From a virus, in the IMG/VR virus record IMGVR_UViG_3300024432_000004, positions 1 through 40,815 of that record: a stretch of 40,815 nucleotides of DNA; one strand, 5' to 3'. Below the pieces are notes generated by a model. That model saw nothing but the letters and a program-made list of their open reading frames with translations. It had not been told where the DNA came from and made no database searches. Made by a program: the position numbers and the translations under genes. Below are positions 1-40,815 of the stretch, one piece after another (the first letter of the stretch is position 1; each line of letters begins with the position of its first letter).

Positions 1-141
1 TGTTGCATGGGCACTGGGGCAGCTGGAGCCTGCTGTTGCATGGGCACTGGGGCAGCTGGAGCCTGCTGTTGCATGGGCACTGGGGCAGCTGGAGCCTGCT
101 GTTGCATTGGTGCAACTGGAGCCTGCTGTTGCATTGACATT
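1..141. repeat. 33-bp tandem repeat (left portion), shared with window end
   Basis: A 33-bp unit encodes QQQAPAAPVPM on the minus strand. Period 33 is exact from 1 to about 107. It then decays into degenerate copies to about 141. Positions 1-103 are identical to 40713-40815, so the true copy number is probably collapsed or duplicated by assembly at the genome closure. Confidence 0.9.
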
Positions 142-791
142 GAAGCTGTTTGAGAAACACCAGGATATGGAACACCTACCACTTGCTCACAATGACCAAC
201 CATACCGGCAATTTCATTTAAACTCATACCAACGGGATTTATAATAGTGTCATGTTTGATCAATAGTATAAATTCAGGATTACAATAGATACCCGCTGTA
301 TTACCTGTCTGAACGTTATTTGCAAAACTTACACCTACTTTAACATGTACACCAGTGTAAAAATTATCATGATTAATAGATTCCACTGGTGAACCATTCG
401 GGGCAACTTCCAATAATTTTGGCAAACTTTCAAAACCACTACTAAAGTGGAAAATATAACAATCTTTTGCATGTTGAGAATATGGTTTACCATTGGCGTT
501 TAAACCATCACCATCATTACATTTCCATGAATACCCATCATTATTCAAATCTAGGGGCCATTGACGACCATTAGCAGCCGCAATCATAATAGAAAATACA
601 CCAGGTATTCCATCACGATCATACAATTCAGGAGATGTTTTAGGTACAGCTAATTGAAAATAGAAATTCATTTTCTGCGTACCATCTTTATTTACTGCTG
701 GTTGTTTAGTTATCATATCCCATGATTGCATTTTTTGTTTCACATTACCACCAATCACACGGCCTATTAAAATACGTGTTTCTTTAGTCAT
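1..791 (-). CDS. Probable single-strand DNA-binding protein (N-terminal part; gene crosses the window end)
   Basis: The protein starts MTKETRILIGRVIGG and runs off the left edge. It re-enters in frame at the right edge and stops at 40559-40561. If the 103-bp terminal overlap is collapsed, it has about 314 residues. The first ~220 residues resemble the phage SSB-like/DUF2815-type proteins found beside DUF2800 nucleases: a beta-rich body with the pieces KMNFYFQLAVPK, GDGLNANGKPY and IYCNPEFILLI. This is recognition by eye. The tail is repeats of MQQQAPAAPVP, a flexible linker. Known SSBs often carry such a disordered tail before a partner-binding tip, but this protein's tip is not the classical acidic DDDLPF type. 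The ATG overlaps the upstream nuclease stop (ATGA), and GAGGAG lies upstream on the minus strand. The number of repeats is uncertain. Confidence 0.62.
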   Translation of the reverse strand, partial: MTKETRILIGRVIGGNVKQKMQSWDMITKQPAVNKDGTQKMNFYFQLAVPKTSPELYDRDGIPGVFSIMIAAANGRQWPLDLNNDGYSWKCNDGDGLNANGKPYSQHAKDCYIFHFSSGFESLPKLLEVAPNGSPVESINHDNFYTGVHVKVGVSFANNVQTGNTAGIYCNPEFILLIKHDTIINPVGMSLNEIAGMVGHCEQVVGVPYPGVSQTASMSMQQQAPVAPMQQQAPAAPVPMQQQAPAAPVPMQQQAPAAPVPMQ

Positions 792-8060: not shown

Positions 8061-8122
8061 GTGTCCAGTCTGTGTCCAGTGTGTCCAGTCTGTGTCCAGT
8101 CTGTGTCCAGTCTGTGTCCAGT
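8061..8122 (+). repeat. Six direct GTGTCCAGT repeats (left iteron block)
   Basis: Copies of GTGTCCAGT begin at 8061, 8072, 8081, 8092, 8103 and 8114. Most steps are 11 bp, close to one helical turn, and one step is 9 bp. The same word recurs at 8169-8186 (two copies, the first CTGTCCAGT), and in reverse orientation at 8282-8298 and 8344-8385. Phased short repeats of this kind usually bind an initiator or a repressor. Confidence 0.88.
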
Positions 8123-8385
8123 CTTCTAATAACGATAAATGTGCATAAAATTATATATTTATACTATGCTGTCCAGTGTGTCCAGTCTAAAATGGTATAT
8201 TTATATAAGAAAAAAACAAAATAACAAAATTATAATGTTAATATAATGGTGACATTTTCATATAGATATACATCATTTTAGACTGGACACACTGGACAGA
8301 TCATGAAAGTAATTGATTTTTAATAGATAATCGTTATTAGAAGACTGGACACAGACTGGACACAGATTGGACACAGACTGGACAT
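8081..8385. promoter_or_regulatory. Candidate replication origin or master control region: nested inverted repeats
   Basis: Outer arms 8103-8136 and 8330-8363 are perfect 34-bp inverted copies, extendable outward to about 56 bp with two mismatches. Inner arms 8169-8194 and 8274-8299 are perfect 26-bp inverted copies. The centre (8195-8273) is very AT-rich with no gene. The arms contain the GTGTCCAGT words. The region lies between the two divergent operons, beside the ribbon-helix-helix and primase-helicase genes, as expected of a phage origin or a shared operator. Which of these it is cannot be told from sequence. Confidence 0.65.
8344..8385 (-). repeat. Four inverted GTGTCCAGT repeats (right iteron block)
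   Basis: Read on the plus strand, ACTGGACAC occurs at 8344 and 8355, ATTGGACAC at 8366 and ACTGGACAT at 8377, all 11 bp apart. They mirror the left block in opposite orientation; two of the four have a single change. Confidence 0.87.
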
Positions 8386-18359: not shown

Positions 18360-18385
18360 AATTTTATGAAGTGGATGGTGTTGGT

Positions 18386-20740
18386 ATGTCAATAGATGAA
18401 ACAAACCCTGTTGATATAATTTTCAATAAAGATGGGACGAAATTATTTTTAGTTGGGCAACAGAATAATTCTATCTATGAACATGATTTAACCACACCAT
18501 TCGATATATCGACTTTATCGGAAGTGCAAGAAACGAAATCTATTGCTTCGGAAGATAATTTACCAACTGCTATTATTTTCAATAAAGACGGAACTAAATT
18601 ATTCCTTCTTGGACAACAAAATGCATCTATATATGAGTATGATCTAACCACACCATTCGATATATCCACATTATCTGGTGTCCAGATAATAAAATCCATT
18701 GTATCAGGTGATAATGCACCGACTGCTATTATTTTCAACAAAGATGGAACTAAATTATTTATAGCTGGGGATGAAAATAATTACGTCTATGAGTATGCTT
18801 TAAGCACACCATTTGACATATCTACATTGTCTGAAGTGCAGGGAGTGAAATCTATTGGTTCAGAAGATACTAGCCCTAAAGCATTAAGATTTAACAGAGA
18901 TGGAACGAAATTATTTATAGCTGGGCAACAAAATGATTCAGTCTACGAGTACGGTCTAACCACGCCGTTCAATATATCCACATTATCACAGGTTCAATCT
19001 ACAGTCGTAATTCCATCTAGTGATACTATTCCAGCAGGAATAACTTTCATCAATGACGGAACTAGATTTTATGTGATTGGAAGTGACAATGATCGTTTCT
19101 ATTCATATGATCTAACCACACCATTCGACATATCCACGACATCGATAATTGAAGTACCTCCTAGTGTTGGTTACGATTTAAATAATTTATCTGCGGTTCA
19201 GGTTACGAAATCTGTTAATTCGGAAGATGCTAACCCCAGAGATATTATTTTTAATAATGACGGTGATAAATTATTCATGATTGGTGCCCAGAATGATTCA
19301 ATTTTTGAGTATAATCTTAGTACCGAATTTGATTTATTTACATTGTCAGGAGTTCAGGCAAGTAGTTCTATTACTTCAGAAGATGTGAATCCTAGAGGAA
19401 TAGCTTTCAATAATGATGGCAGTAAGATATTCATGGTTGGAAGTGACGGTTTTCTTGTAGTATACGATTTGAATAATTTATCAACAGTCCAGGTTACAAA
19501 ACCTATCGCAACTGAGGATAATTCTCCACAAGGAATAGCATTTAATAATGATGGCACAAAGATATTCATGGTTGGTAATTCAAACAATTCAATTTATGAA
19601 TATGATTTAGGCACAGCATTTGATTTATTAACGTTATCTGGAGTTCAAGCAACTAAATCTGTAACGTTAGAAGATACTGGTCCAACTGGAATAGCGTTTA
19701 ATGATGATGGCACTAAGATATTTATGATTGGTACTTCCAACGATTCAATTTATGAATATAATTTAGGCACAGCATTTGATTTACTAACGTTATCAGGCGT
19801 TCAGGTTACGAAATCGGTTGCATCGGAAGATACTAGTCCAACTGGAATAGCATTTAATAATGATGGCACTAAGATATTTATGATTGGTACTTCCAACGAT
19901 TCAATTTATGAATATAATTTAGGCACAGCATTTGATTTACTAACGTTATCTGGAGTTCAAGCAACTAAATCTATTTCATTGGAAGACGATAATCCAAGGA
20001 GTATAGCGTTTAATGATGATGGCACTAAGATATTTATGATTGGTATTACCAATGGTTCAATTTATGAATATGATTTAGGCACAGCATTTGATTTATTAAC
20101 GTTATCTGGAGTTCAAGCAACTAAATCTATTTCATTGGAAGATTCAATTCCAACTGGAATAGCGTTTAATGATGATGGCACTAAGATATTTATGATTGGT
20201 ATTGCTAACGGTTCAATTTATGAATACGATATGAGCGCAACCGAACCTGGTATTAATGAGTATGATTTAAGCACTGCATACGATATATCAACATTATCAG
20301 TAGTCCAAGAAAGAAAATCTATTGCTTCAGAAGATAATAACCCTACTGATATTACTTTCAGCAATAACGGAAATAAATTATTTACAATTGGTTCTCAGAA
20401 TGATTCTATCTATGAATATAATCTGAGTACTGCATTTGATTTATCAACGTTATCAGTAGTTCAGCAATCAAAATCCATTACTTTGGAAGATGAAACACCC
20501 ACCGATATTGTTTTTAATGATACTGGTGACAAATTATTTATGCTTGGTAATCAAAATAATTCAATATATGAGTATGATTTATCAACAGAATTTGACATAT
20601 CGACATTATCAGGCGTTCAGGTTACGAAATCTGTTTCTTTAGAAGATGGAAGCCCTAGAGGAATAACGTTTAATAATAATGGCACCAAAATATTTATGGT
20701 TGGTACTTCAAACGATTCCATCTATGAGTATGATCTCTAA
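18386..20740 (+). CDS. Beta-propeller-like protein with about 15 repeats
   Basis: 784 residues from the ATG at 18386; a GTG at 18371 would add five. About 15 copies of a ~50-residue unit run end to end, each with an xxIxFNxDGTKLF core, then (V/I)Gxxxx(S)IYEYDL, then a DLLTLSGVQxTKS linker. Several copies between ~19600 and 20240 are almost identical in DNA. DGTKxF repeats with a repeated Tyr-Glu-Tyr strand suggest seven-bladed propellers, perhaps two. There is no signal peptide. Such repeats occur in phage tail or surface-binding proteins, but this gene lies between connector and tail-terminator genes. It ends immediately after a repeat, with no cap domain. Role unknown; ligand binding is plausible. 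Confidence 0.68.
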   Translation: MSIDETNPVDIIFNKDGTKLFLVGQQNNSIYEHDLTTPFDISTLSEVQETKSIASEDNLPTAIIFNKDGTKLFLLGQQNASIYEYDLTTPFDISTLSGVQIIKSIVSGDNAPTAIIFNKDGTKLFIAGDENNYVYEYALSTPFDISTLSEVQGVKSIGSEDTSPKALRFNRDGTKLFIAGQQNDSVYEYGLTTPFNISTLSQVQSTVVIPSSDTIPAGITFINDGTRFYVIGSDNDRFYSYDLTTPFDISTTSIIEVPPSVGYDLNNLSAVQVTKSVNSEDANPRDIIFNNDGDKLFMIGAQNDSIFEYNLSTEFDLFTLSGVQASSSITSEDVNPRGIAFNNDGSKIFMVGSDGFLVVYDLNNLSTVQVTKPIATEDNSPQGIAFNNDGTKIFMVGNSNNSIYEYDLGTAFDLLTLSGVQATKSVTLEDTGPTGIAFNDDGTKIFMIGTSNDSIYEYNLGTAFDLLTLSGVQVTKSVASEDTSPTGIAFNNDGTKIFMIGTSNDSIYEYNLGTAFDLLTLSGVQATKSISLEDDNPRSIAFNDDGTKIFMIGITNGSIYEYDLGTAFDLLTLSGVQATKSISLEDSIPTGIAFNDDGTKIFMIGIANGSIYEYDMSATEPGINEYDLSTAYDISTLSVVQERKSIASEDNNPTDITFSNNGNKLFTIGSQNDSIYEYNLSTAFDLSTLSVVQQSKSITLEDETPTDIVFNDTGDKLFMLGNQNNSIYEYDLSTEFDISTLSGVQVTKSVSLEDGSPRGITFNNNGTKIFMVGTSNDSIYEYDL

Positions 20741-20768: not shown

Positions 20769-20780
20769 GGGGGGGGGGGG
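20769..20780 (+). repeat. Twelve-base poly-G tract upstream of the autotransporter gene
   Basis: An uninterrupted run of 12 G in an AT-rich intergenic region, 28 bases after the propeller stop. Long G runs are unstable in replication and are typical phase-variation elements in some Gram-negative surface genes. Here it lies upstream of the promoter-like elements, so length change would alter spacing and not the reading frame of the 20903 start. Confidence 0.8.
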
Positions 20781-20803
20781 TGATGAATTACATGATTTGG
20801 TTG

Positions 20804-20847
20804 ATATCACATGGAATGTTGTTGACGTGCAACATTCCATGTGATAT
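20804..20847 (+). promoter_or_regulatory. Perfect 18-bp hairpin upstream of the autotransporter gene
   Basis: Arms 20804-20821 and 20830-20847 (ATATCACATGGAATGTTG and its exact complement) flank an eight-base loop TTGACGTG. No T-run follows, so it is not a standard terminator. It could be an operator, a processing site or a weak transcription barrier between the propeller and autotransporter genes. Confidence 0.72.
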
Positions 20848-20848
20848 G

Positions 20849-20878
20849 TTTACAACTATGTCTGTTTACATTTATTCT
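20849..20878 (+). promoter_or_regulatory. Possible promoter for the autotransporter gene
   Basis: TTTACA at 20849-20854, an 18-base spacer, then TATTCT at 20873-20878, about 25 bases before the start codon. Both hexamers are imperfect. Independent transcription would fit a gene cargo inside a structural operon. Confidence 0.4.
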
Positions 20879-20902
20879 AGTATAAAAAAAGGAAAGAAGC
20901 AA

Positions 20903-23900
20903 ATGAAAAAGAAAATTAACAAAGTAGGATTATTTAGTGCGTTAGCGTGTGCAAGTTTTTTTAGTGTGAATGTTTGCGATGCGGAACCATCGGTTGCATA
21001 TAGTGCGGTTAATGTTTCTGTATCTTCTGAGAGCAGTGTTGAAACTACCTTTGTTTCTCCAGGAGATGTGTTAGTTGCTGGTGTTGAAGGTGTTGATGCT
21101 GTTTTAGCCACCGAAGCTGATGTTGTGACGCTTAATCAGGTATTGGTAGCTGGTATTACAGGTGTAACTGAGGTCTTAGCAGGTGTTGATGACGTTATCA
21201 TACTTGACCAAATATTGATTGCTGAAACCGAAGATGTTGGTCCTGTATTAGCCACTCTTGATGATGTTATTCAATTGGGTGCTTCAATCGCTGCTACTGA
21301 AGCCAATGTTATCAATCTCGGTGATGTGCTGGTTGATGAGTTTTTCGCTGTAACTGAGGTGATTGCCACTGCTACCGATGTTGTCAATATTGGTGATCCA
21401 TTAAAAATCACAGAGAGAAATGCTATTGCGGTTGGCGATGTCCTGGTTGAATATGTCAAACATATCCCTGACGTAACAGCCGGTGTGGAAGATGTTGTTG
21501 AGCTTCATGGTCCAATTAAAGCAACTGAAAAGCATGTTATTGAGATTGGCGATGTATTGACAGCCGGTGTTTTACATAAAGATGCCGTGCTAGCCACCAT
21601 TGATGACGTTATTGAAGTCGATGATATCATATTTGCCACTCTAGAACGCCATTTTGTCGTAGGAATTACCAAAGAAGAATATGCTACGGCTGTAAATATC
21701 GAACGTGTTGGTGAGGTTGATACTGCTTGTCTTACACAAAATACACTTATCAGCAATTATAATGCTGAAATTGGGGTTGGTGACAGAACAAAAGCAGACT
21801 TAATTGTTGATGTAAATCGATCTATTGATGCCGCCGATGTGACATATGCTGTAAACATCGAACGTATTGGTTTGGTTGATAATGCTGGTTTAACAACATA
21901 TCAAGAGATCAAACGTATTGGTGAGGTTGATGCAGATTTAACACCATATCAGGCTATTGCTGAAATCAATCAGACGCTTGATAGTAGTAGTTACGATACT
22001 GCTAATACGAACATAACCAATAATATTCTTACTGCTGGTCATGCTGATGAAAACGTCGATGGAAAGATAAGTGCCGTAGTTAATGTTGATGACATTATTA
22101 TGTCACTTCCGACAAATGATGCTAGCCGGGCAGCTACACATATTGTAATTAATAAAGCAAATACTGATGCAGTAAAGAGTATACTTAGTGATACTCCTGG
22201 TGCTGCAAGCAGTGTATTATTAAAGACCTTAAATGATAATACTAACGGTACAGAAGTTAGCCTTAATGATACTCAAAAAAATGCATTTATTAAAATGTAT
22301 CAGGATAGGTTAATTGTTGATCGTCTGATTGATGCTAACGGTACTGATTTTATCGTTGCTCAACAGTTAACAGATGCTAAATTCATTGTTGAGCAAAATG
22401 GAATTAATGCTGTCGATGTGACCGATGCCAATTTTGTTATTGCACATGGTGAAATCGATAGTGATGATACAGATGATGCTGAAAAAATTATTAATTATGA
22501 TAGTGCCAATCCTAATGAAGCTATCACTGATGCTGATCTGATCGATGCGGGAAAAATTGTTGCAATTGATCAAATAGTCGATGCTACCCAGTTAGAAGAT
22601 GCTAAAATTATTGTTGAAATTGGTGAAATTTCCGCTACTGAGTTACAAGATGCTAGAGAGTTAAAAGCCCGTGGTATTGCTGAAGGTAGTGATGATCCTG
22701 ATAATCTAGGTGCCGTCAAAGCTGTAAAAGAAGGCGATGCAATAAAAGCCACATATCATGCTACTGAAAGTGATCTTATCGCCGTTGATGATGTGTTGGA
22801 AGCCGAAGTTATGGCTGTTACCGAGGTTTTAGCCGAAGCTGATGATGTTGTCAATATTGGTGACCCAATAAAAGCCACAGCCGATGATGTTATTGAGCTA
22901 GGTGAGGTATTGATTGAAGGCACCGAGGGTGTTGCTGAGGAATTAGCTACTGAGGATGATGTCATTGAGGTTGGGCAAGTGATATCAGCCACCGCTGATC
23001 ATGTTGTCAAGGTCGGTGATGTATTGGTAGCTGCTGTTGAAGGTAAAGCTGCTGTATTAGCAACTGAGGACGATGTTGTTAATCTGGGTGATGCAATTGA
23101 AGCAACTGAAGTCAATGTCATTAAGGTTGGCGATGTGTTGGTAGCTGCTGTTGAAGGTAAAGATGCTGTATTAGCTACCGCCGATGACGTTATCGTTCTC
23201 GGACAGGTGCTGGTAGTTGGTGTTGAAGGTGTTGAAGAGGTATTAGCTACTGAGGCCGATGTTGTCAATCTGGGTGATGTGTTGGTAGCTGGTATTGAAG
23301 CTGTTGAAGAGGTGCTAGCCACCGCTGATGATGCTATTGAAAATTATGCATCCAACATAGGAATGTCTGAATCAGAGATGTCTAGCATGACTTCTAAACT
23401 TTCTGAAACAGAAAAAACAGCAGTCATTACGAAGCTTTCTGAATTAAACCCGAATACTACCAAGTCAGACAAAGCAACGATGGCAGGTATCGCATTTGCA
23501 TTTGTATCCGATCCAGCTAGTAAAACTGTATTTGGTAAAGTTATGGATGATCTTAAAAATGGCAATACGACAATGGATGAAATCAACACCAAAGCCAATT
23601 CTGATACCAATAGTGCGGTAGTAGGTGCGGCAACAGGTATCACCATTGTCAATAATACGGTAAATGTTCGTCAAGAAAGTATTGTTACAGCTTCAGGTAA
23701 GTACGGATTGAGAAAATATTCAGGTATGAACTCTGGAAGTTCAAGTCTTGATAAGGGTGCATGGCTTAAAGTGATAGGTTCTACTGCTGATATGGGCACA
23801 CGTCAATCTGTAGCTGGCTACGAAGCAGATAGTCATGGTGTTGTCATTGGTGTTGATAAAACCATTGGGGACATTGTAATTGGTGGTGCTTTCAGCTATG

Positions 23901-24565
23901 TAGATACTGACACTGAAGGTAAAAGTATTGCCAATTCTGAAACGCAGACAAAACAGTATCAGAGTACTTTGTATGGTGCATTTTTAAATGACGGACATGT
24001 TATTGATGGATCTGTTGCATATGGTCATTCAACGAGTGATACAAGCCGTACTGGGTTAGGTGGTCAAGTAACAGGTTCATTCGGCACTGATATTTATTCA
24101 GTTGGTGCTGGTTTCAGTGTACCGATGGATATGGGTAGCTGGTCAATCACTCCTAAAGTTTCGATGTCTTATTCGCATGTGTCACCGGATGAATATACCG
24201 AAAGTGGCATAGGTGCTAAAAAAATCAATGTTAAAAGCATGGATTTATTGAGTGTTCAAACTGGTGTAACCATGGGTAGCAAGATGGTTACAGATGGTGG
24301 TGCAATCATTCCAAAATTGCGTTTAATTGCGGATTTAGATATTGCTAGAGAGCAAGCCGTGGTAAATTCATCTTGGGCAAGCAATGGTAGTGTTACTCCT
24401 GTGTCAACTGGTGTTAAGCCGTCTGCCCTGGGTGCTATCATTGGTGCAGGTGTTGAATATGCCAGTGATGATGGTGCATATGTTTTCAGTGTGGGCTATG
24501 ATGCGGGTATTAGATCTCAGTTTATTTCCCATTCTGCTAATGCAAAAATTCGTGTAAATTTCTAG
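20903..24565 (+). CDS. Phage-encoded autotransporter-type outer-membrane protein
   Basis: 1220 residues from ATG 20903, with AAGGAA eight bases upstream; an in-frame GTG/ATG at 20780 is less likely because it gives no signal peptide. Residues 1-27 form a Sec signal peptide (MKKKINKVGLFSALACASFF, cleavage probably after CDA). Residues ~35-330 and ~600-810 are repeats of a VGDVLVAGVEGVxxVLATxDDV unit, very acidic and poor in Lys/Arg, separated by a helical Ala/Asp-rich middle with Glu-Ile-xxxx-Asp repeats. The last ~280 residues fit an autotransporter beta barrel: alternating strands such as GAWLKVIGSTADMG, then GVVIGVDKTIGDIVIGGAFS, ending with the terminal Phe signature AKIRVNF. Autotransporters insert the barrel in the outer membrane and display the passenger outside. 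This is not a known virion part; a cargo (moron) gene acting on the infected cell is likely. Confidence 0.82.
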   Translation: MKKKINKVGLFSALACASFFSVNVCDAEPSVAYSAVNVSVSSESSVETTFVSPGDVLVAGVEGVDAVLATEADVVTLNQVLVAGITGVTEVLAGVDDVIILDQILIAETEDVGPVLATLDDVIQLGASIAATEANVINLGDVLVDEFFAVTEVIATATDVVNIGDPLKITERNAIAVGDVLVEYVKHIPDVTAGVEDVVELHGPIKATEKHVIEIGDVLTAGVLHKDAVLATIDDVIEVDDIIFATLERHFVVGITKEEYATAVNIERVGEVDTACLTQNTLISNYNAEIGVGDRTKADLIVDVNRSIDAADVTYAVNIERIGLVDNAGLTTYQEIKRIGEVDADLTPYQAIAEINQTLDSSSYDTANTNITNNILTAGHADENVDGKISAVVNVDDIIMSLPTNDASRAATHIVINKANTDAVKSILSDTPGAASSVLLKTLNDNTNGTEVSLNDTQKNAFIKMYQDRLIVDRLIDANGTDFIVAQQLTDAKFIVEQNGINAVDVTDANFVIAHGEIDSDDTDDAEKIINYDSANPNEAITDADLIDAGKIVAIDQIVDATQLEDAKIIVEIGEISATELQDARELKARGIAEGSDDPDNLGAVKAVKEGDAIKATYHATESDLIAVDDVLEAEVMAVTEVLAEADDVVNIGDPIKATADDVIELGEVLIEGTEGVAEELATEDDVIEVGQVISATADHVVKVGDVLVAAVEGKAAVLATEDDVVNLGDAIEATEVNVIKVGDVLVAAVEGKDAVLATADDVIVLGQVLVVGVEGVEEVLATEADVVNLGDVLVAGIEAVEEVLATADDAIENYASNIGMSESEMSSMTSKLSETEKTAVITKLSELNPNTTKSDKATMAGIAFAFVSDPASKTVFGKVMDDLKNGNTTMDEINTKANSDTNSAVVGAATGITIVNNTVNVRQESIVTASGKYGLRKYSGMNSGSSSLDKGAWLKVIGSTADMGTRQSVAGYEADSHGVVIGVDKTIGDIVIGGAFSYVDTDTEGKSIANSETQTKQYQSTLYGAFLNDGHVIDGSVAYGHSTSDTSRTGLGGQVTGSFGTDIYSVGAGFSVPMDMGSWSITPKVSMSYSHVSPDEYTESGIGAKKINVKSMDLLSVQTGVTMGSKMVTDGGAIIPKLRLIADLDIAREQAVVNSSWASNGSVTPVSTGVKPSALGAIIGAGVEYASDDGAYVFSVGYDAGIRSQFISHSANAKIRVNF

Positions 24566-30787: not shown

Positions 30788-30982
30788 ATGGATATTGGAC
30801 CACTCATTCTTATTGTTTTTGTTCTTACATGTATTTATTTCATTCCAAGTATCGTAGCTAAACAGCGTAAACACTACGACGTTTGGGCAATTTTTATTAC
30901 AAATTTATTTTTAGGATGGACATTCTTAGGATGGGTGATTTCATTGATTTGGGCAACGAAAAAATACCCATTAAGAGGATAA
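30788..30982 (+). CDS. Superinfection immunity-like membrane protein
   Basis: 64 residues. Two hydrophobic segments (~4-21 and ~33-56) surround a basic loop. The pattern IPSIVAKQRKHYDVWAIF, then TNLFLGWTFLGWVISLIWA, matches the superinfection-immunity family (T4 Imm type; IP-xxAxxR...NxFLGWTxxGWxxxLxWA). These proteins sit in the inner membrane and block DNA entry of related phages. It lies between the tail peptidase and TipJ genes, and its C-terminal codons form the left arm of a perfect hairpin. Confidence 0.78.
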   Translation: MDIGPLILIVFVLTCIYFIPSIVAKQRKHYDVWAIFITNLFLGWTFLGWVISLIWATKKYPLRG

Positions 30983-31019: not shown

Positions 31020-33260
31020 GAGTTAAAAGAAATACAAGCAGAAACCCCTGCTCATTTTTGCTTGGAAAATTTTGAAGCAAGCCCTTTTTCTGTTCATGAA
31101 GGTTTTCAACCCACTTCCGAAAATGAAATAACTAAAAATTTTTCAAAAATGATTTCAACAATAGGTGAATTTACTATTGTTGAAACTCCCGCAGGTGGTA
31201 TCGGATTTATTGCCGCATTGAAAATTATCGGTGCTGTTGCATCTATCATTTCTACCGTTATTTCGGTATCTAGTTTATTTGCCGGTAGACCAGATATACC
31301 ACAACCTGTTGCATTAAAAAATGTAAACCGTCAACAACAATCACCAAATAATGCACTTGGTGATAGATCAAATACAGCTAGAATTAATGAAAGAATTCCC
31401 GATATTGGTGGTCAAGTAAATTCCATTCCTGATATCATCATGAGTCCGTATCGTAAATTCGTGTCAAATATAGAAGAAGAAATTTCTTATTATTGTGTTG
31501 GTAGAAAATCATTATTGATTGAAGATATTAAAGATGGTGACACTCTAATATCTGATATTACTAACGCAAGTGCCGCCGTTTATGATCCTTTCACTTCTCC
31601 CAATAGTGGTGATTCTCCAGAAATACAAATAGGACCGATTATAAGTGACTTAGTTCAAACGGTACGGCGTTCTGTTGAAGTCGGGGGATTAATCCTTACA
31701 GCTAGTAATGAAACACCAGCAGGAGGCTTTACAAGCTGGTTTTCTTTTTCCACTCTCAAAGTCGATAGATTTTGGGTGAATGTTATTGCTGCAAAAGGCA
31801 TGTTCAAAGATGATGGGGTAGACCGAATTTCCACTAGTGTAAATTTTACCTTAGAATGGCAATTTCTTGACGATAATAGAGATCCAGTAGGTTCTATTTC
31901 TTCTTCATCCGGTACCGTATCAGGTGGTGACACAGATCAAAAAGGTACAACGGTTGAAATCACCATGGGTTCTAGATCGTATGTTAGGTGTAGAGTTAAA
32001 AGAACAACCCCGAAAGATTTTGAATTTGAAGGTACTGTAGTTGATGAAATTCAGTGGAGAGATTTATATGGTTCCCAGGATGTTGAACTAACCGATTTTG
32101 GAGATGTTACTACAATCCATACCCGACGAATCAGAAATGAAACTAGTACAGCAATCACAACACCTGTGCTATCGTGTTTGGCAACAGAAAAGGTTGATAA
32201 ATATTTAGGTGGTGGTTCGTTTGCTGGAAGTCTTACACCTAACACTCAAGCAATGCAAACATTGATTAGGATGGCACTTGATTCAAAAATCGGTGGTAGA
32301 GATACTACCGAACTTGATCTTGATCAGTTATTACAAACTCAAGAAGATATTGAAGAATATTTTGATGCTTCCGAAGCAGGGGAGTTTAATTACACTTTTG
32401 ATTCAACACAAATAACACCACAAGAGATTTTCTATACTATTGCAAATGCTGTTTTTTGTGTTCCTTATCGTACAGGAAAAGTTTTACAAGTTGAGTTTGA
32501 AAAACCACAAATTGGACCCGCAATGGTTTTTACTCATCGATCAAAAAAACCCAATACGGAAGTATGGTCGAGACGGTTTAAAAATTCTTCAGAAAATGAC
32601 GGAGTTATTTTGAAATGGCAGAATCGAGAAACCAATACCCAAGAATTAATTTTCTTTCCTGTTGATCGTAGTGCGATTAATCCCAAAACTTACGAAATTC
32701 CAGGTATTGCAAATTTTCAACAGGCACAATGGCGTACGTGGCGGGAATTTCAAAAAATTCGGTATGGTAGAATTGGGGTTGATGTTACTACAACTTCAGA
32801 AGGTAGATTTATTAAACCGTCACGAATGATATCAGTAGTCAAAGGCAGTCGTGTTAATACGTTTGATGGTTATATAAGATCAGTAGACGGTTTGGAACTT
32901 CGATTATCACAATCGGTTGAATTCACACCGGGTGACGATCATTTTATTATCTTAAAAAAACGTAATGGTGATATTCAATCCATACCGGTTATTGCTAGTT
33001 CTGATAGCAAACATATTGTGCTTCTTGAGATTCCAGAGGAAACGATATACACTGATAATAGTGCTTTAAAAACTGAATTTTCATTTGGTCCAGAGATGAG
33101 ATTAGAGGCACAAAGGATTTTACCACTGACTATTGATCCTTCGGAAAAACAGTATGTTAGAGTGACGGGGATTAATTACGATAAACGGTATTACATTTTT
33201 GATAAATTGAACCCGTTAACACGTGGGCACTCAACCGGATTTAGTGAAGGATTTTCATAA
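30984..33260 (+). CDS. TipJ-family tail tip / host-specificity protein
   Basis: 758 residues, shorter than lambda J. Starts MTVSIKYYPLNGELKE. Residues ~70-100 contain a hydrophobic segment (GFIAALKIIGAVASIISTVI), as commonly seen in this family. The central region (SYYCVGRKSLLIEDIKDGDT, VTTIHTRRIRN, YTFDSTQITPQEIFYTIANA) and the region RRFKNSSENDGVILKW, then PGIANFQQAQWRTWREFQKI match TipJ proteins. It likely forms the tail-tip hub and contacts the receptor. Its start is buried in a hairpin, and two prepilin-like genes follow with TAATG coupling. Confidence 0.82.
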   Translation: MTVSIKYYPLNGELKEIQAETPAHFCLENFEASPFSVHEGFQPTSENEITKNFSKMISTIGEFTIVETPAGGIGFIAALKIIGAVASIISTVISVSSLFAGRPDIPQPVALKNVNRQQQSPNNALGDRSNTARINERIPDIGGQVNSIPDIIMSPYRKFVSNIEEEISYYCVGRKSLLIEDIKDGDTLISDITNASAAVYDPFTSPNSGDSPEIQIGPIISDLVQTVRRSVEVGGLILTASNETPAGGFTSWFSFSTLKVDRFWVNVIAAKGMFKDDGVDRISTSVNFTLEWQFLDDNRDPVGSISSSSGTVSGGDTDQKGTTVEITMGSRSYVRCRVKRTTPKDFEFEGTVVDEIQWRDLYGSQDVELTDFGDVTTIHTRRIRNETSTAITTPVLSCLATEKVDKYLGGGSFAGSLTPNTQAMQTLIRMALDSKIGGRDTTELDLDQLLQTQEDIEEYFDASEAGEFNYTFDSTQITPQEIFYTIANAVFCVPYRTGKVLQVEFEKPQIGPAMVFTHRSKKPNTEVWSRRFKNSSENDGVILKWQNRETNTQELIFFPVDRSAINPKTYEIPGIANFQQAQWRTWREFQKIRYGRIGVDVTTTSEGRFIKPSRMISVVKGSRVNTFDGYIRSVDGLELRLSQSVEFTPGDDHFIILKKRNGDIQSIPVIASSDSKHIVLLEIPEETIYTDNSALKTEFSFGPEMRLEAQRILPLTIDPSEKQYVRVTGINYDKRYYIFDKLNPLTRGHSTGFSEGFS

Positions 33261-33805
33261 TGAAAAAACAGAGTACAGGATTTTCCTTAGTTGAGGTTGC
33301 CATAGTGTTGGTGATCATTGGTGTGGTCATGGCAGCGATAGCAATCGGTAAGGATGTAAAAACGAATGCAGACGTTACACGTTTGTTTAAAAATCGGGTA
33401 GAATCCTGTATTATGGCATCTTTTCAGATAAACAGTCATAAAAAATATGATGGGTCAGAGATCGACAAACACCAAGATAATGGGACTCTTTTGAAGCATT
33501 TCTGTAAAATTAAAAAACATCCCGATGGTAAAATAACAGCTAGAATCTATGTACCATCCGAAGCAATGGCTGTTTTACTGTATGAAAAATCACAGGAGAT
33601 ACTTTCTCCAGATGATTTCAAAGTGATGCCACACCCACCTACAAATAGAAATCTTCTGATTGTTACTAATGACGGCTATGGGGTTATACCCCCACCTGTT
33701 CTTGATACTGGCCTTGGTGGGCCTACACCTGGAGGTTCTGGTGGTCCTATCCTTGGTGGTCCTGCACCTGGAGGTCTCACCCGTGATGTTTTCACAAGGA
33801 GATAA
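33260..33805 (+). CDS. Type IV prepilin-like protein 1
   Basis: 181 residues. N-terminus MKKQSTG|FSLVEVAIVLVI is a class III prepilin signal: short basic leader, Gly at -1, Phe at +1, Glu at +5, then a ~20-residue hydrophobic helix. It would be cleaved and N-methylated by the host prepilin peptidase PilD. The body (~35-140) has a Cys pair (VESC, KHFCK) and is unlike common major pilins. The C-terminus is Gly/Pro-rich (GLGGPTPGGSGGPILGG). It follows TipJ with a TAATG overlap, so it is co-translated with a tail gene. Whether it is a virion part or acts on host pili is unknown. Confidence 0.78.
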   Translation: MKKQSTGFSLVEVAIVLVIIGVVMAAIAIGKDVKTNADVTRLFKNRVESCIMASFQINSHKKYDGSEIDKHQDNGTLLKHFCKIKKHPDGKITARIYVPSEAMAVLLYEKSQEILSPDDFKVMPHPPTNRNLLIVTNDGYGVIPPPVLDTGLGGPTPGGSGGPILGGPAPGGLTRDVFTRR

Positions 33806-34289
33806 AACACAGGAAACAGGATTCACCCTAATAGAAGTATGTATTGTATTAATTACGATTGGTGTACTCACTGGAGTAGTTATCACTGAGCGAAATGTCA
33901 GAGTAAACACTGATATAACAAGCTCGTTCAAAAATCGGGTAGAATCTTGTGTATTAGCAGCATATACGTATATCGACAATTCACCTTTAAAACTCACAGG
34001 GGGTAAACATGGCAAAATTCAATCACTCCTACGTGAATTTTGCCATGTTGAGAGTGGAATTAAAACAACCGCATTTAAAGATCCCGGCACGAACCAGTTA
34101 GAAATATGGAAGATAAAAAAGAAACAAGAATTTTGGAAAAAATTTAAGAAAGAGGAAAACGAAAAATGGCGGGATGAATGGAACGAAAAATGGCGTGATG
34201 AATGGAACGGATTGAAAAAATCTGATGAATGGCTGGCTCTTTTATTAAAGATGAATGAATTTAAAATGTCAACAAGGGAGTTAAAATAA
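33786..34289 (+). CDS. Type IV prepilin-like protein 2, paralogue of protein 1
   Basis: 167 residues from ATG 33786, inside the end of the preceding gene. Leader MFSQGDKTQETG, then FTLIEVCIVLITIGVLTGVV: again Gly -1, Phe +1, Glu +5 and a hydrophobic helix. It shares NxDxTxxFKNRVESC with protein 1, and DNA around that motif is nearly identical, so the two arose by duplication. The body lacks the Gly/Pro tail; instead it ends in a charged region with two copies of NEKWRDEW and a basic helix. AAGGAG lies inside the gene start but too late to serve the ATG. Coupled translation from gene 1 is likely. Confidence 0.74.
   Translation: MFSQGDKTQETGFTLIEVCIVLITIGVLTGVVITERNVRVNTDITSSFKNRVESCVLAAYTYIDNSPLKLTGGKHGKIQSLLREFCHVESGIKTTAFKDPGTNQLEIWKIKKKQEFWKKFKKEENEKWRDEWNEKWRDEWNGLKKSDEWLALLLKMNEFKMSTRELK
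34006..34049 (+). repeat. Perfect 16-bp inverted repeat inside prepilin-like gene 2
   Basis: AACATGGCAAAATTCA (34006-34021) is the exact complement of 34034-34049, with a 12-base loop. It encodes part of the protein body. A stable mRNA hairpin here could slow ribosomes or be a recent insertion. Confidence 0.75.
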
Positions 34290-35061: not shown

Positions 35062-36492
35062 ATGGCAAAGTTTTTTCCACCGACTATCACAACTGCACAA
35101 AGAACCGCTATTACACCCGATAAAGGTGAAATTATGTTTGATTCTGATTTAGATACATTCTATCTAGGTGATGGATCAACACTAGGGGGTATTACTCTCA
35201 AAGGTGATACCGGTGATGTTGGACCTCCTGGTCCACTTGGTGCCGTGGTGGACGATACAAGCCCACAATTAGGCGGTTTCCTTGATCCAAATGGAAATTA
35301 CATCGGAATGGGCAAAGGTGGTGATATTGCTTCTTCTTCACCTCTTGTGATTGATATTGACGGTGATTATTTCGATATAACCGGTACAAATAGTTTTTCA
35401 ACAATGACCGTTATTGAAAATCGGTTTTTTATTCTTGAATTCGATGCGGTGTTAACTATCACCCATGGGGGTAGTATTACACTCCCAGGATCTACAAATT
35501 TCACAACTGCTGCCGGTGACCATCTTCTATGTTTTTCAACCGCTGCAAATACTGTCCGAGTGGTAGCGATTACTAAAGCGGATGGTTCAGCTGTTGTTTC
35601 TGGATTATTTAATGTTTCTGAAGATACCACACCACAATTAGGCGGTTTCCTTGATCCAAATGGAAATTACATCGGTTCTGAAAAAGGTGGTGATATCGCT
35701 TCCTCATCACCACTTACAATCGGTACCAATGGTGATTATTTTGATGTGACAGGCACAACTGGTTTTTCAACAATGACTGTTGCCGTTAATAGGCTATTTA
35801 GATTGCAGTTTGACGGGATATTAACTATCACCCATGGGGGTAGTATTACACTCCCAGGATCTGCAAATTTTACAACTGCTGCCGGTGATGAAATTACGTT
35901 TTTTTCAACCGCTACAAATACTGTCCGAGTGGTAGCGATTACTAAAGCGGATGGTACACCCGTTATTTCTCCTAATGGCGGTGGTGCTTGGAATTTAATA
36001 GGTACAATAGAAGCTAGTGATGATGCTACATTAACTATCACGGGTTTGGATAGTACTTATGATACATATGCTATTGGTCTGAGTGATTTAATTCCTGCTA
36101 CTGGAACCCCAATCGCTCATTTACGAGTTGGTGATAGTGGTGGTATAGATAGTGGTAGTACAGATTATAACTATGTATATCATATAACAGCGTCTACTAA
36201 TCCTACTATATATACTGGATCAGGTTCAATAGGTGATACACATATTAAATTAGGAGGAGTTGCTTGTAATGCTTTTGGTGGTATGTTATTTTTACATAGA
36301 CCTGGAGATGGTGATTCCTTTCCTTCTATAAGCGGCACTTGTGCGCCTCAAAACAGCAATGATAATTCGCAACTGTGTGTAATAGCTGGACACAGAACAG
36401 CAGTCATAACATTAGATAGAATTCAATTTCTATTTTCTTCAGGTAATGTATCAACAGGAAGAATGACAATATGGGGATTATCACATGAATAA
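35062..36492 (+). CDS. Tail fibre protein with collagen-like motif and duplicated domain
   Basis: 476 residues. After an N-terminal fibre-head motif (TPDKGEIMFDSDLDTFYLGD), a short collagen-like stretch GDTGDVGPPGPLG appears. Two copies of a ~120-residue domain follow, each starting (T)xPQLGGFLDPNGNYIG and containing LTITHGGSITLPGS and NTVRVVAITKADG; their DNA is still similar. The C-terminal ~170 residues (GGAWNLIGTIEASDDATLTI ... MTIWGLSHE) form a separate beta-rich tip, probably the receptor-binding end. Confidence 0.78.
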   Translation: MAKFFPPTITTAQRTAITPDKGEIMFDSDLDTFYLGDGSTLGGITLKGDTGDVGPPGPLGAVVDDTSPQLGGFLDPNGNYIGMGKGGDIASSSPLVIDIDGDYFDITGTNSFSTMTVIENRFFILEFDAVLTITHGGSITLPGSTNFTTAAGDHLLCFSTAANTVRVVAITKADGSAVVSGLFNVSEDTTPQLGGFLDPNGNYIGSEKGGDIASSSPLTIGTNGDYFDVTGTTGFSTMTVAVNRLFRLQFDGILTITHGGSITLPGSANFTTAAGDEITFFSTATNTVRVVAITKADGTPVISPNGGGAWNLIGTIEASDDATLTITGLDSTYDTYAIGLSDLIPATGTPIAHLRVGDSGGIDSGSTDYNYVYHITASTNPTIYTGSGSIGDTHIKLGGVACNAFGGMLFLHRPGDGDSFPSISGTCAPQNSNDNSQLCVIAGHRTAVITLDRIQFLFSSGNVSTGRMTIWGLSHE

Positions 36493-36790: not shown

Positions 36791-37236
36791 AAATTCTTGT
36801 TAAAAGACAGTTTCAGACCAAAAACACTACAATTTCGACTATCTTTATTGATGGTGAATTTCAATGTTTCGGCTTGGAAAACCCGCACCATAATGTAAAA
36901 ATACCTGACAATACCAGAATCTCCTCTGGGATTTATCGTGTAGGCATACGATTAACAGGGGGTAAGAATGATCATTACTTAAAAAGATATCCAAATTTAC
37001 ATCGGGGAATGCTTGAAATTAAAAACGTTCCTGGTTTTGAATATATTTTAATTCACATCGGTAATTATCATCGTAATACTGATGGTTGCTTATTAGTCGG
37101 AGAATCAATAACTCGTGACGGTTATGAAAACTATATGGTTGGTAATAGTCGTGTTGCATATTTAAGTTTTTATGAAAAAACGATTGCTGCTGCTGAAAAA
37201 AATTATTTACAAATTGAGATTAGAAATGAATATTAA
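36787..37236 (+). CDS. Endolysin candidate, DUF5675 family
   Basis: 149 residues. Pieces LVKRQFQTKNTTISTIFIDG, CFGLENP and the C-terminal ILIHIGNYHRNTDGCLLVG match DUF5675. The HIGN...DGC arrangement recalls L,D-transpeptidase-like fold active sites (His and Cys), and DUF5675 proteins are often found where phage lysins are. A peptidoglycan-acting role is likely but not proven. No signal peptide is present, so a holin would be needed; none is obvious nearby. ATGA overlap upstream. Confidence 0.65.
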   Translation: MKILVKRQFQTKNTTISTIFIDGEFQCFGLENPHHNVKIPDNTRISSGIYRVGIRLTGGKNDHYLKRYPNLHRGMLEIKNVPGFEYILIHIGNYHRNTDGCLLVGESITRDGYENYMVGNSRVAYLSFYEKTIAAAEKNYLQIEIRNEY

Positions 37237-37828
37237 TCAAAGTATCAAAAAGGTATTTGTTCACGGTATTAATACAGATGGCAAAGACAACATTTTTCAA
37301 ATGGCTGATTATCTAGAAAGTGAAGCTGATACCAATATGGTACAACATAACATTTACAGGTTTCGATATGGTCCAATTGGTCCTAATGATGCCCGTGATT
37401 TGAAATTTCTACAGAAAACAGCATTTAGATTGATTAAAGAAGCCGGTGACGGTGCGGATTTAATAGGACATTCAAACGGGTGCCGGGTGATTATTGAGGC
37501 TATACGATTGGGTTTGGATGCTCACAGAGTTATCTTGTTCGCTCCTGCCGTTGAATCATGGCTTGCATTGCCTGGAAAGGGTAGGGGATGTAATACTATG
37601 ATTGTAGTACACAACCCCCGTGACAAGGCCATACGTGCCGGGGAAATGTTGTTTTATCACCCCTTTGGATCAATGGGTAGAGAAGGTTATAATGGTCCTG
37701 CTGATAGTCGCATTACGAATTTTGAGGCACAGCCACTTGATACTCCTGGACGATTTAAGCATAACGGATATTTTACTGGTACTGATTTATCGGTGTGGGT
37801 AGATCGTGTCAAAATCTGGTTGAAGTAA
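37226..37828 (+). CDS. Alpha/beta hydrolase at the end of the lysis module
   Basis: 200 residues from the ATG at 37226, overlapping the DUF5675 gene end; an earlier start at 37172 would overlap it more. The hydrolase signs are VFVHGINTDG (oxyanion region), ADLIGHSNGCRVI (nucleophile Ser in GxSxG), a likely Asp in VVHNPRDKAIRAG, and a likely His in RFKHNGYF. No signal peptide. Substrates could be lipids or esters on the envelope. Phages of mycobacteria use such an enzyme (LysB) for envelope esters, but the rest of this genome does not suggest that kind of host. Confidence 0.78.
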   Translation: MNINQSIKKVFVHGINTDGKDNIFQMADYLESEADTNMVQHNIYRFRYGPIGPNDARDLKFLQKTAFRLIKEAGDGADLIGHSNGCRVIIEAIRLGLDAHRVILFAPAVESWLALPGKGRGCNTMIVVHNPRDKAIRAGEMLFYHPFGSMGREGYNGPADSRITNFEAQPLDTPGRFKHNGYFTGTDLSVWVDRVKIWLK

Positions 37829-40558: not shown

Positions 40559-40815
40559 TCAATTTAAAATAGTATCGTGGGGTGGTGCATTCATCATACC
40601 ACTATCAATCAATTGCTGATCAGTCCAATTTGATGCATGATACTGTTCTCTGGTTAAACCGTTTGCTTTCGATGTCATTGTGAATTGCGGCACTGGGGCA
40701 GCTGGAGCCTGCTGTTGCATGGGCACTGGGGCAGCTGGAGCCTGCTGTTGCATGGGCACTGGGGCAGCTGGAGCCTGCTGTTGCATGGGCACTGGGGCAG
40801 CTGGAGCCTGCTGTT
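40559..40815 (-). CDS. C-terminal part of the same SSB-like protein
   Basis: This is the continuation of the gene that starts at 791. It holds further 11-residue MQQQAPAAPVP repeats and a unique C-terminal tail of about 43 residues that contains FTMTSKANGLTREQYH and ends with PPHDTILN. An internal GTG/ATG could be mistaken for a start, but the frame is continuous with 791 once the shared terminal repeat is merged. The unique tail would be the part available for partner contacts, by analogy with other SSB tails. That role is inference. Confidence 0.65.
   Translation of the reverse strand, partial: QQAPAAPVPMQQQAPAAPVPMQQQAPAAPVPMQQQAPAAPVPQFTMTSKANGLTREQYHASNWTDQQLIDSGMMNAPPHDTILN
40687..40815. 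repeat. 33-bp tandem repeat (right portion), shared with window start
   Basis: This carries almost four copies of the same 33-bp unit as at 1-107, lying in the SSB-like gene. The last 103 bases equal the first 103 bases of the window. That is the signature of a circular assembly opened in a repeat, more than of a physical terminal repeat, because the reading frame passes straight through. Confidence 0.9.

Follow-up and report, generated by a model that had tools for sequence, protein, structure and literature searches.

A tandem pair of prepilin-like genes in a variable slot between the tail-tip and fibre genes of a tailed phage

The viral record IMGVR_UViG_3300024432_000004 was analysed as a single window covering all of its 40815 bases, and we focused on two tandem genes for prepilin-like proteins that lie between a TipJ-family tail-tip gene and a fibre gene (Table 1). 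From sequence comparison, the TipJ identity of the gene upstream of the pair is certain. It ends in a TAATG that also holds the start codon of gene 1, and gene 2 ends in a second TAATG, shared with the fibre gene at 34289. A preliminary description of this DNA had both genes coupled to TipJ in this manner; this holds for gene 1, whereas gene 2 starts at ATG 33786, about 10 bases downstream of a GGAGG, and shares its first 20 bases with the end of gene 1. The small gene on the other side of TipJ, described there as immunity-like, proved to be a true member of the Imm_superinfect family and is itself accessory, being absent from the relatives L004 and L006.

As a class III leader we counted a short basic N-terminus followed by Gly-1, a hydrophobic residue at +1, Glu+5 and a hydrophobic helix. 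The genes are real and unusual, and protein 1 carries such a leader: it starts MKKQSTGFSLVEVAIVLVIIGVVMAAIAIGKDV, and its MKKQSTG is followed by FSLVE, giving Gly-1, Phe+1 and Glu+5 ahead of the hydrophobic helix. The protein scores above the cut-offs of both Pfam N_methyl (28.9 bits against 21.2, E 7.4e-7) and NCBIfam TIGR02532 (21.5 against 16.3). A strict leader scan picked out gene 1, whereas 60 shuffled windows gave no hit, and the combination of TAATG with a leader occurs once in the window and in 0/100 shuffles. In protein 2, MFSQGDKTQETG is followed by FTLIE, so that Gly-1, Phe+1 and Glu+5 are again present; judged by its sequence, this protein is recognised as prepilin-like mainly via its paralogy with protein 1.

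That paralogy, proposed earlier, was borne out by alignment, in which 37/86 residues are identical (43%, E 4e-21). Similarity is limited to about residues 1-90, and beyond this the proteins are completely different, with a Pro/Gly-rich C-terminus in protein 1 and a charged, Trp-rich one with a 24-bp tandem repeat in protein 2. The near-identical DNA of the shared FKNRVESC segment, which had drawn attention before, turned out to lie within codon-usage expectation for a shared peptide (6/8 codons identical, P = 0.17), and recent duplication or gene conversion on this ground was therefore rejected. Outside the segment the codon is kept at just 12/30 shared residues, so the duplication looks old. 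Two cysteines are common to both proteins (Cys50/Cys82 in protein 1, Cys55/Cys86 in protein 2) and would suit a disulphide outside the cytoplasm; together with the single transmembrane helix found in protein 1 by hydropathy, they appear compatible with an exported domain.

Table 1. Features of the window around the tail-tip gene and at the record ends (positions in the window; aa, amino acids).
Feature	Position	Strand	Basis
33-bp tandem repeat, the same at both ends of the window	1-107 and 40689-40815		
Autotransporter	20780-24565	+	Pfam PF03797 E 6e-35, residues 994-1236; Sec-type signal
Imm_superinfect small membrane protein, 64 aa, directly before TipJ	30788..30982	+	Pfam PF14373 E 3.9e-18; phrog_1039 E 1.8e-19
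TipJ-family tail-tip / host specificity protein, 758 aa	30984..33260	+	NCBIfam NF040662 E 3.9e-103; phrog_469 E 1.5e-179
Prepilin-like protein 1, 181 aa	33260..33805	+	N_methyl and TIGR02532 above cut-off; translation; hydropathy
Prepilin-like protein 2, 167 aa	33786..34289	+	Translation; N_methyl E 0.004, below cut-off; paralogy E 4e-21
24-bp tandem repeat within gene 2, encoding EKWRDEWN; 2.2 copies	34158..34209	+	TRF
Fibre-like protein, 256 aa; directly follows TipJ in relative L003	34289..35059	+	Alignment of four relatives; L003 junction

Comparison with relatives revealed that the place occupied by the pair is variable. Relative L003, whose TipJ is 82% identical, runs TipJ-TAATG-fibre directly with no insert, and the window runs TipJ-TAATG-gene 1/gene 2-TAATG-fibre, with TAATG kept at both ends. 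TipJ likewise overlaps a fibre or tailspike gene directly in L102, where the junction is again TAATG, and in the contigs L007 and L008, which match each other exactly in the TipJ region. Among isolates, the six nearest that were examined have a tailspike or fibre gene within about 10-15 bases of TipJ. Other relatives fill the slot: L006 has one or two unrelated short hydrophobic (membrane) open reading frames (ORFs), and L004 has an ORF of 59 residues that keeps the helix and Glu+5 without the downstream domain. Homology of this ORF to gene 1 covers its first half, where 14/28 residues and 54/84 bases agree (0/2000 composition-preserving shuffles). That it arose by joining the two gene ends was considered and set aside as suggestive only (P 0.06 for protein, 0.16 for DNA).

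Close relatives with a 79-85% identical TipJ and a homologous fibre carry no gene pair, and the pair is thus not conserved together with the tail module. We found no N_methyl match in the whole records of six relatives and no leader in the stretch examined of eight more distant TipJ phages (Vibrio, Acinetobacter, E. coli). A search for TipJ-prepilin gene pairs in other phages, as suggested in the preliminary description, came back empty: among 67 stretches of viral contigs with TAATG-coupled prepilins, most of them with a true leader, none follows a TipJ-like gene. These arrangements mark the pair as an accessory cassette, gained and lost in a variable slot, which speaks against its being a structural part of the tail.

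This slot has precedents among known exclusion genes. In T1, HK022, N15, ES18 and phi80 the tail fibre cluster is followed directly by the cor exclusion cassette, which includes two further, uncharacterised membrane-protein genes (PMC13164509), the llp gene of T5 adjoins the receptor-binding gene pb5 on its downstream side (PMC9586334), and the BASEL study notes that in small siphoviruses the locus beside the J-like hub encodes exclusion factors as well as receptor-binding proteins (PMC11990801). Like the Cor and Llp cassettes, which place accessory envelope-protein genes directly downstream of a tail-tip or receptor-binding gene (PMC13164509, PMC9586334), the window pair consists of accessory genes directly downstream of the tail tip that vary between relatives. 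Inspection of both proteins showed no lipobox, and no Cor- or Llp-type family was among their matches. The receptor gatekeeping favoured by the preliminary description is supported by the position of the genes, in a variable slot with the cor and llp precedent, while its mechanism is inferred.

Phage-encoded pilins are already known; the novelty lies in the pairing, in how far the two proteins have diverged and in where their genes sit. The temperate Pseudomonas phage MD8 encodes a host-type pilin, gp11, beside transposases (PMC8508860), cyanophage pilins form phrog_3433, filed under host takeover and found among metabolic genes, and the same leader recurs in at least five other PHROGs (27437, 11263, 10597, 11596 and 13280), which have no function assigned there. 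The PHROG families carry a GF[ST]L[IV]E leader and in this resemble the window pair, but the phage pilins examined lie elsewhere in the genome, form no tandem pair after TipJ and show no similarity past the leader. The earlier statement that no phage module like this has been described was therefore too strong as regards phage pilins, and it stands for the tandem pair in the TipJ slot, which we found nowhere else. In the literature searched we found neither a tested function for the phage prepilin-like PHROG families or MD8 gp11 nor a paper that assigns an exclusion role to a pilin encoded by a phage. As a separate observation, three viral contigs, L036 (4237-4512, minus strand), L063 (5333-5647, plus strand) and L070 (7496-7759, plus strand), encode small TAATG-coupled prepilin-like proteins of 87-104 amino acids with a common C-x-x-GY[KQ]F motif after the helix, possibly a widespread phage family.

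Similarity of the window proteins to pilins is restricted to the leader and first helix and ends near residue 30. Profile-profile comparison with other phage prepilins gave 95% probability over residues 1-30 only, and the GspH, GspG, PilV and ComG families match the leader and hydrophobic helix at E 1e-4 to 1e-2. Full-length membership in GspG, GspH, PilV or ComGC was not found, as scores reached 15.7-21.5 bits against 52-89, over the N-terminal region only. Type IV minor pilins and type II secretion minor pseudopilins are therefore similar in leader and helix but differ in having a C-terminal pilin domain, which is unrecognised in the window proteins. A colicin-immunity similarity at residues 67-101 (E 0.02) was also considered; it is below the cut-off and probably due to chance, with PDB matches recurring at E 0.15-0.4.

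We consider it likely that the products of this accessory pair are prepilin-like proteins that reside in the envelope of the infected cell. A fuller course of events, from peptidase processing through filament entry or jamming to exclusion of rivals or sparing of progeny, is put forward only tentatively, and its steps of export, cleavage, contact with the filament machinery and exclusion are inferred. The cassette sits between the tail-tip and fibre genes, a place that related phages use for exclusion and other envelope genes, and both proteins would probably be made late, alongside the tail proteins. The class III leader would insert them in the inner membrane of the infected cell, where host prepilin peptidase would process both, and the mature proteins might then enter or jam the host type IV filament machinery, either a pilus or the type II secretion pseudopilus. 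In bacteria, class III leaders are matured by prepilin peptidase and the proteins then enter a type IV filament, and the proposed maturation and filament entry follow from this behaviour. A surface structure used by phages could thereby be altered or removed, so that rivals would be excluded or progeny spared infected cells and debris. In Vibrio cholerae, overproduced minor pilins are reported to raise pilus dynamics rather than block them (PMC13249403), so the outcome could be a change rather than a loss of pili. Lost or changed pili would be a possible outcome shared, as a form of exclusion, with phage inhibitors of type IV pili, e.g., those acting on PilB (reviewed in PMC11436027), but these hit the assembly ATPase or expression, whereas the target of a pilin mimic would be the filament from within.

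An autotransporter with a long repeat-rich passenger is also encoded in this genome, by a gene between the head and tail genes. The L006 record also has one (E 1.8e-45), and the phage collection gave a weak match in only two unannotated records. Because the Imm_superinfect gene, the autotransporter and the prepilin-like pair occur in one genome, the phage seems to invest in changing the infected-cell surface. In its most extended form, the proposal would have two divergent pilin mimics of a virulent phage, matured by the host peptidase, reprogramme a pilus or secretion filament as receptor exclusion, evolutionarily paired with the tail tip and acting alongside an immunity-type protein and an autotransporter; in this form we regard it as unlikely. 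A pair in a receptor-exclusion slot offers a concrete, testable idea for the role of recurrent phage prepilin-like genes. Should that idea be right, phages could control pili by subunit mimicry, leaving the assembly motor unblocked, and the TipJ-slot rule, so far one of outer-membrane receptors, would also cover pili or secretion filaments.

Directly before the autotransporter gene, positions 18371-20740 of the plus strand encode a protein of 789 amino acids with 156-bp tandem repeats that matches beta-propeller families and is possibly a surface-binding or secreted partner of the autotransporter.

Several observations weigh against reading the pair as prepilins that engage a filament. A textbook class III leader had been claimed for both proteins, which fits protein 1; the 12-residue leader of protein 2 is net negative, an acidic and atypical form, and this protein falls below both family cut-offs (N_methyl 17.1 against 21.2, TIGR02532 12.1 against 16.3). 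Cor and Llp, the precedents for the slot, are outer-membrane lipoproteins that inactivate FhuA-type receptors, whereas the window pair carries class III leaders. Profile searches recognised no pilin domain beyond residue 30, and AlphaFold models built from two or three sequences each reached a mean predicted local distance difference test score (pLDDT) of 37 and 45; at this confidence the long first helix (10-57 and 15-65), pilin-like as it is, carries little weight, and the models speak neither for nor against a pilin fold. No homologue of either protein with a conserved leader was found in the viral, phage and bacterial collections. In the sole homologue, the L004 ORF, Arg replaces Gly-1; the preliminary description had named a leader not conserved in homologous phages as grounds for refutation, yet this ORF is a truncated remnant and touches those grounds only in part.

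The strongest rival is the membrane-protein reading without a filament, by which both are ordinary single-pass envelope proteins of the slot with a pilin-like signal anchor, whose helix and periplasmic tail act without peptidase or filament. Retention of the helix and Glu+5, but not of Gly-1 or the downstream domain, in L004 speaks for it, as do the unrelated small membrane ORFs in the L006 slot, the lack of a detectable pilin domain in profile searches and the two uncharacterised membrane proteins beside Cor in T1-like phages (PMC13164509). Both window proteins, however, have kept Gly-1, Phe+1 and Glu+5 despite divergence to 43% identity, which suggests that the cleavage motif is selected, and we regard this explanation as rather unlikely.

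Slightly less credible still, the pair could be a host-derived moron on its way to being lost, which supplies or alters pilin-like subunits and either brings a benefit that has nothing to do with phage entry or brings none. Third-position GC content is 0.30 in both genes against 0.20-0.24 in neighbouring structural genes, the genes are decayed in L004 and absent in L003, and temperate phage MD8 has its host-type pilin beside transposases (PMC8508860). Against this stand the seamless coupling at both ends, the intact pair in the window and the failure to find a close bacterial relative in the bacterial collection. The contig ends, moreover, share an exact 103-base overlap built of a 33-bp tandem repeat, so the genome is probably circularly closed, and the closure probably falls within the repeat-coding stretch of an early gene at 3-791 (minus strand). 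No integrase was recognised among the window proteins scanned, and the siphovirus is therefore probably virulent; with the overlapping ends, this makes a benefit to a lysogen unlikely.

A structural part of the tail tip or fibre, e.g., an adaptor or bait for a pilus receptor, would suit two genes set between tail tip and fibre in one coupled cluster, but close relatives make a 79-85% identical TipJ and a homologous fibre without them and tail parts do not usually have a membrane anchor at the N-terminus, so that the docking or bait role raised earlier finds no support and seems highly improbable. Equally far-fetched are spanin-type lysis proteins, with protein 2 as the helical inner-membrane spanin (N-terminal membrane helix and charged, probably helical tail) and protein 1 as its Pro-rich partner (Pro/Gly-rich tail) in a window where no spanin was recognised among the other proteins scanned, since protein 1 has no lipobox, the GF[ST]L[VI]E motif is foreign to spanins and neither protein matches a spanin family.

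Beyond the prepilin-like pair, the gene content fits a tailed phage: the window encodes its own replication proteins (exonuclease, helicase, primase, DNA polymerase) in addition to terminase, portal, capsid and tail proteins. The closest isolates by TipJ are Guernseyvirinae and a Shewanella phage, at about 40-46%. A scan of bacterial genomes with TipJ gave one prophage-like locus, in Achromobacter, where a large fibre-like gene directly follows TipJ; as this sole locus is distant (31%), the scan assigns no host.

Downstream of the fibre-like gene, a further fibre at 35062-36492 (plus strand) weakly matches the N-terminal domain of the major tropism determinant and contains a module duplicated with a 369-bp period. 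After the fibre genes, 37172-37828 (plus strand) encodes a 218-residue protein with a GHSNG hydrolase-like motif and no Pfam family match, which could be a lysis or envelope esterase. Between the primase and terminase genes, at 8061-8124 and 8342-8384, 11-bp repeats of GTGTCCAGTCT and its reverse complement lie in opposite orientation, and this region is a possible replication origin or regulatory site.

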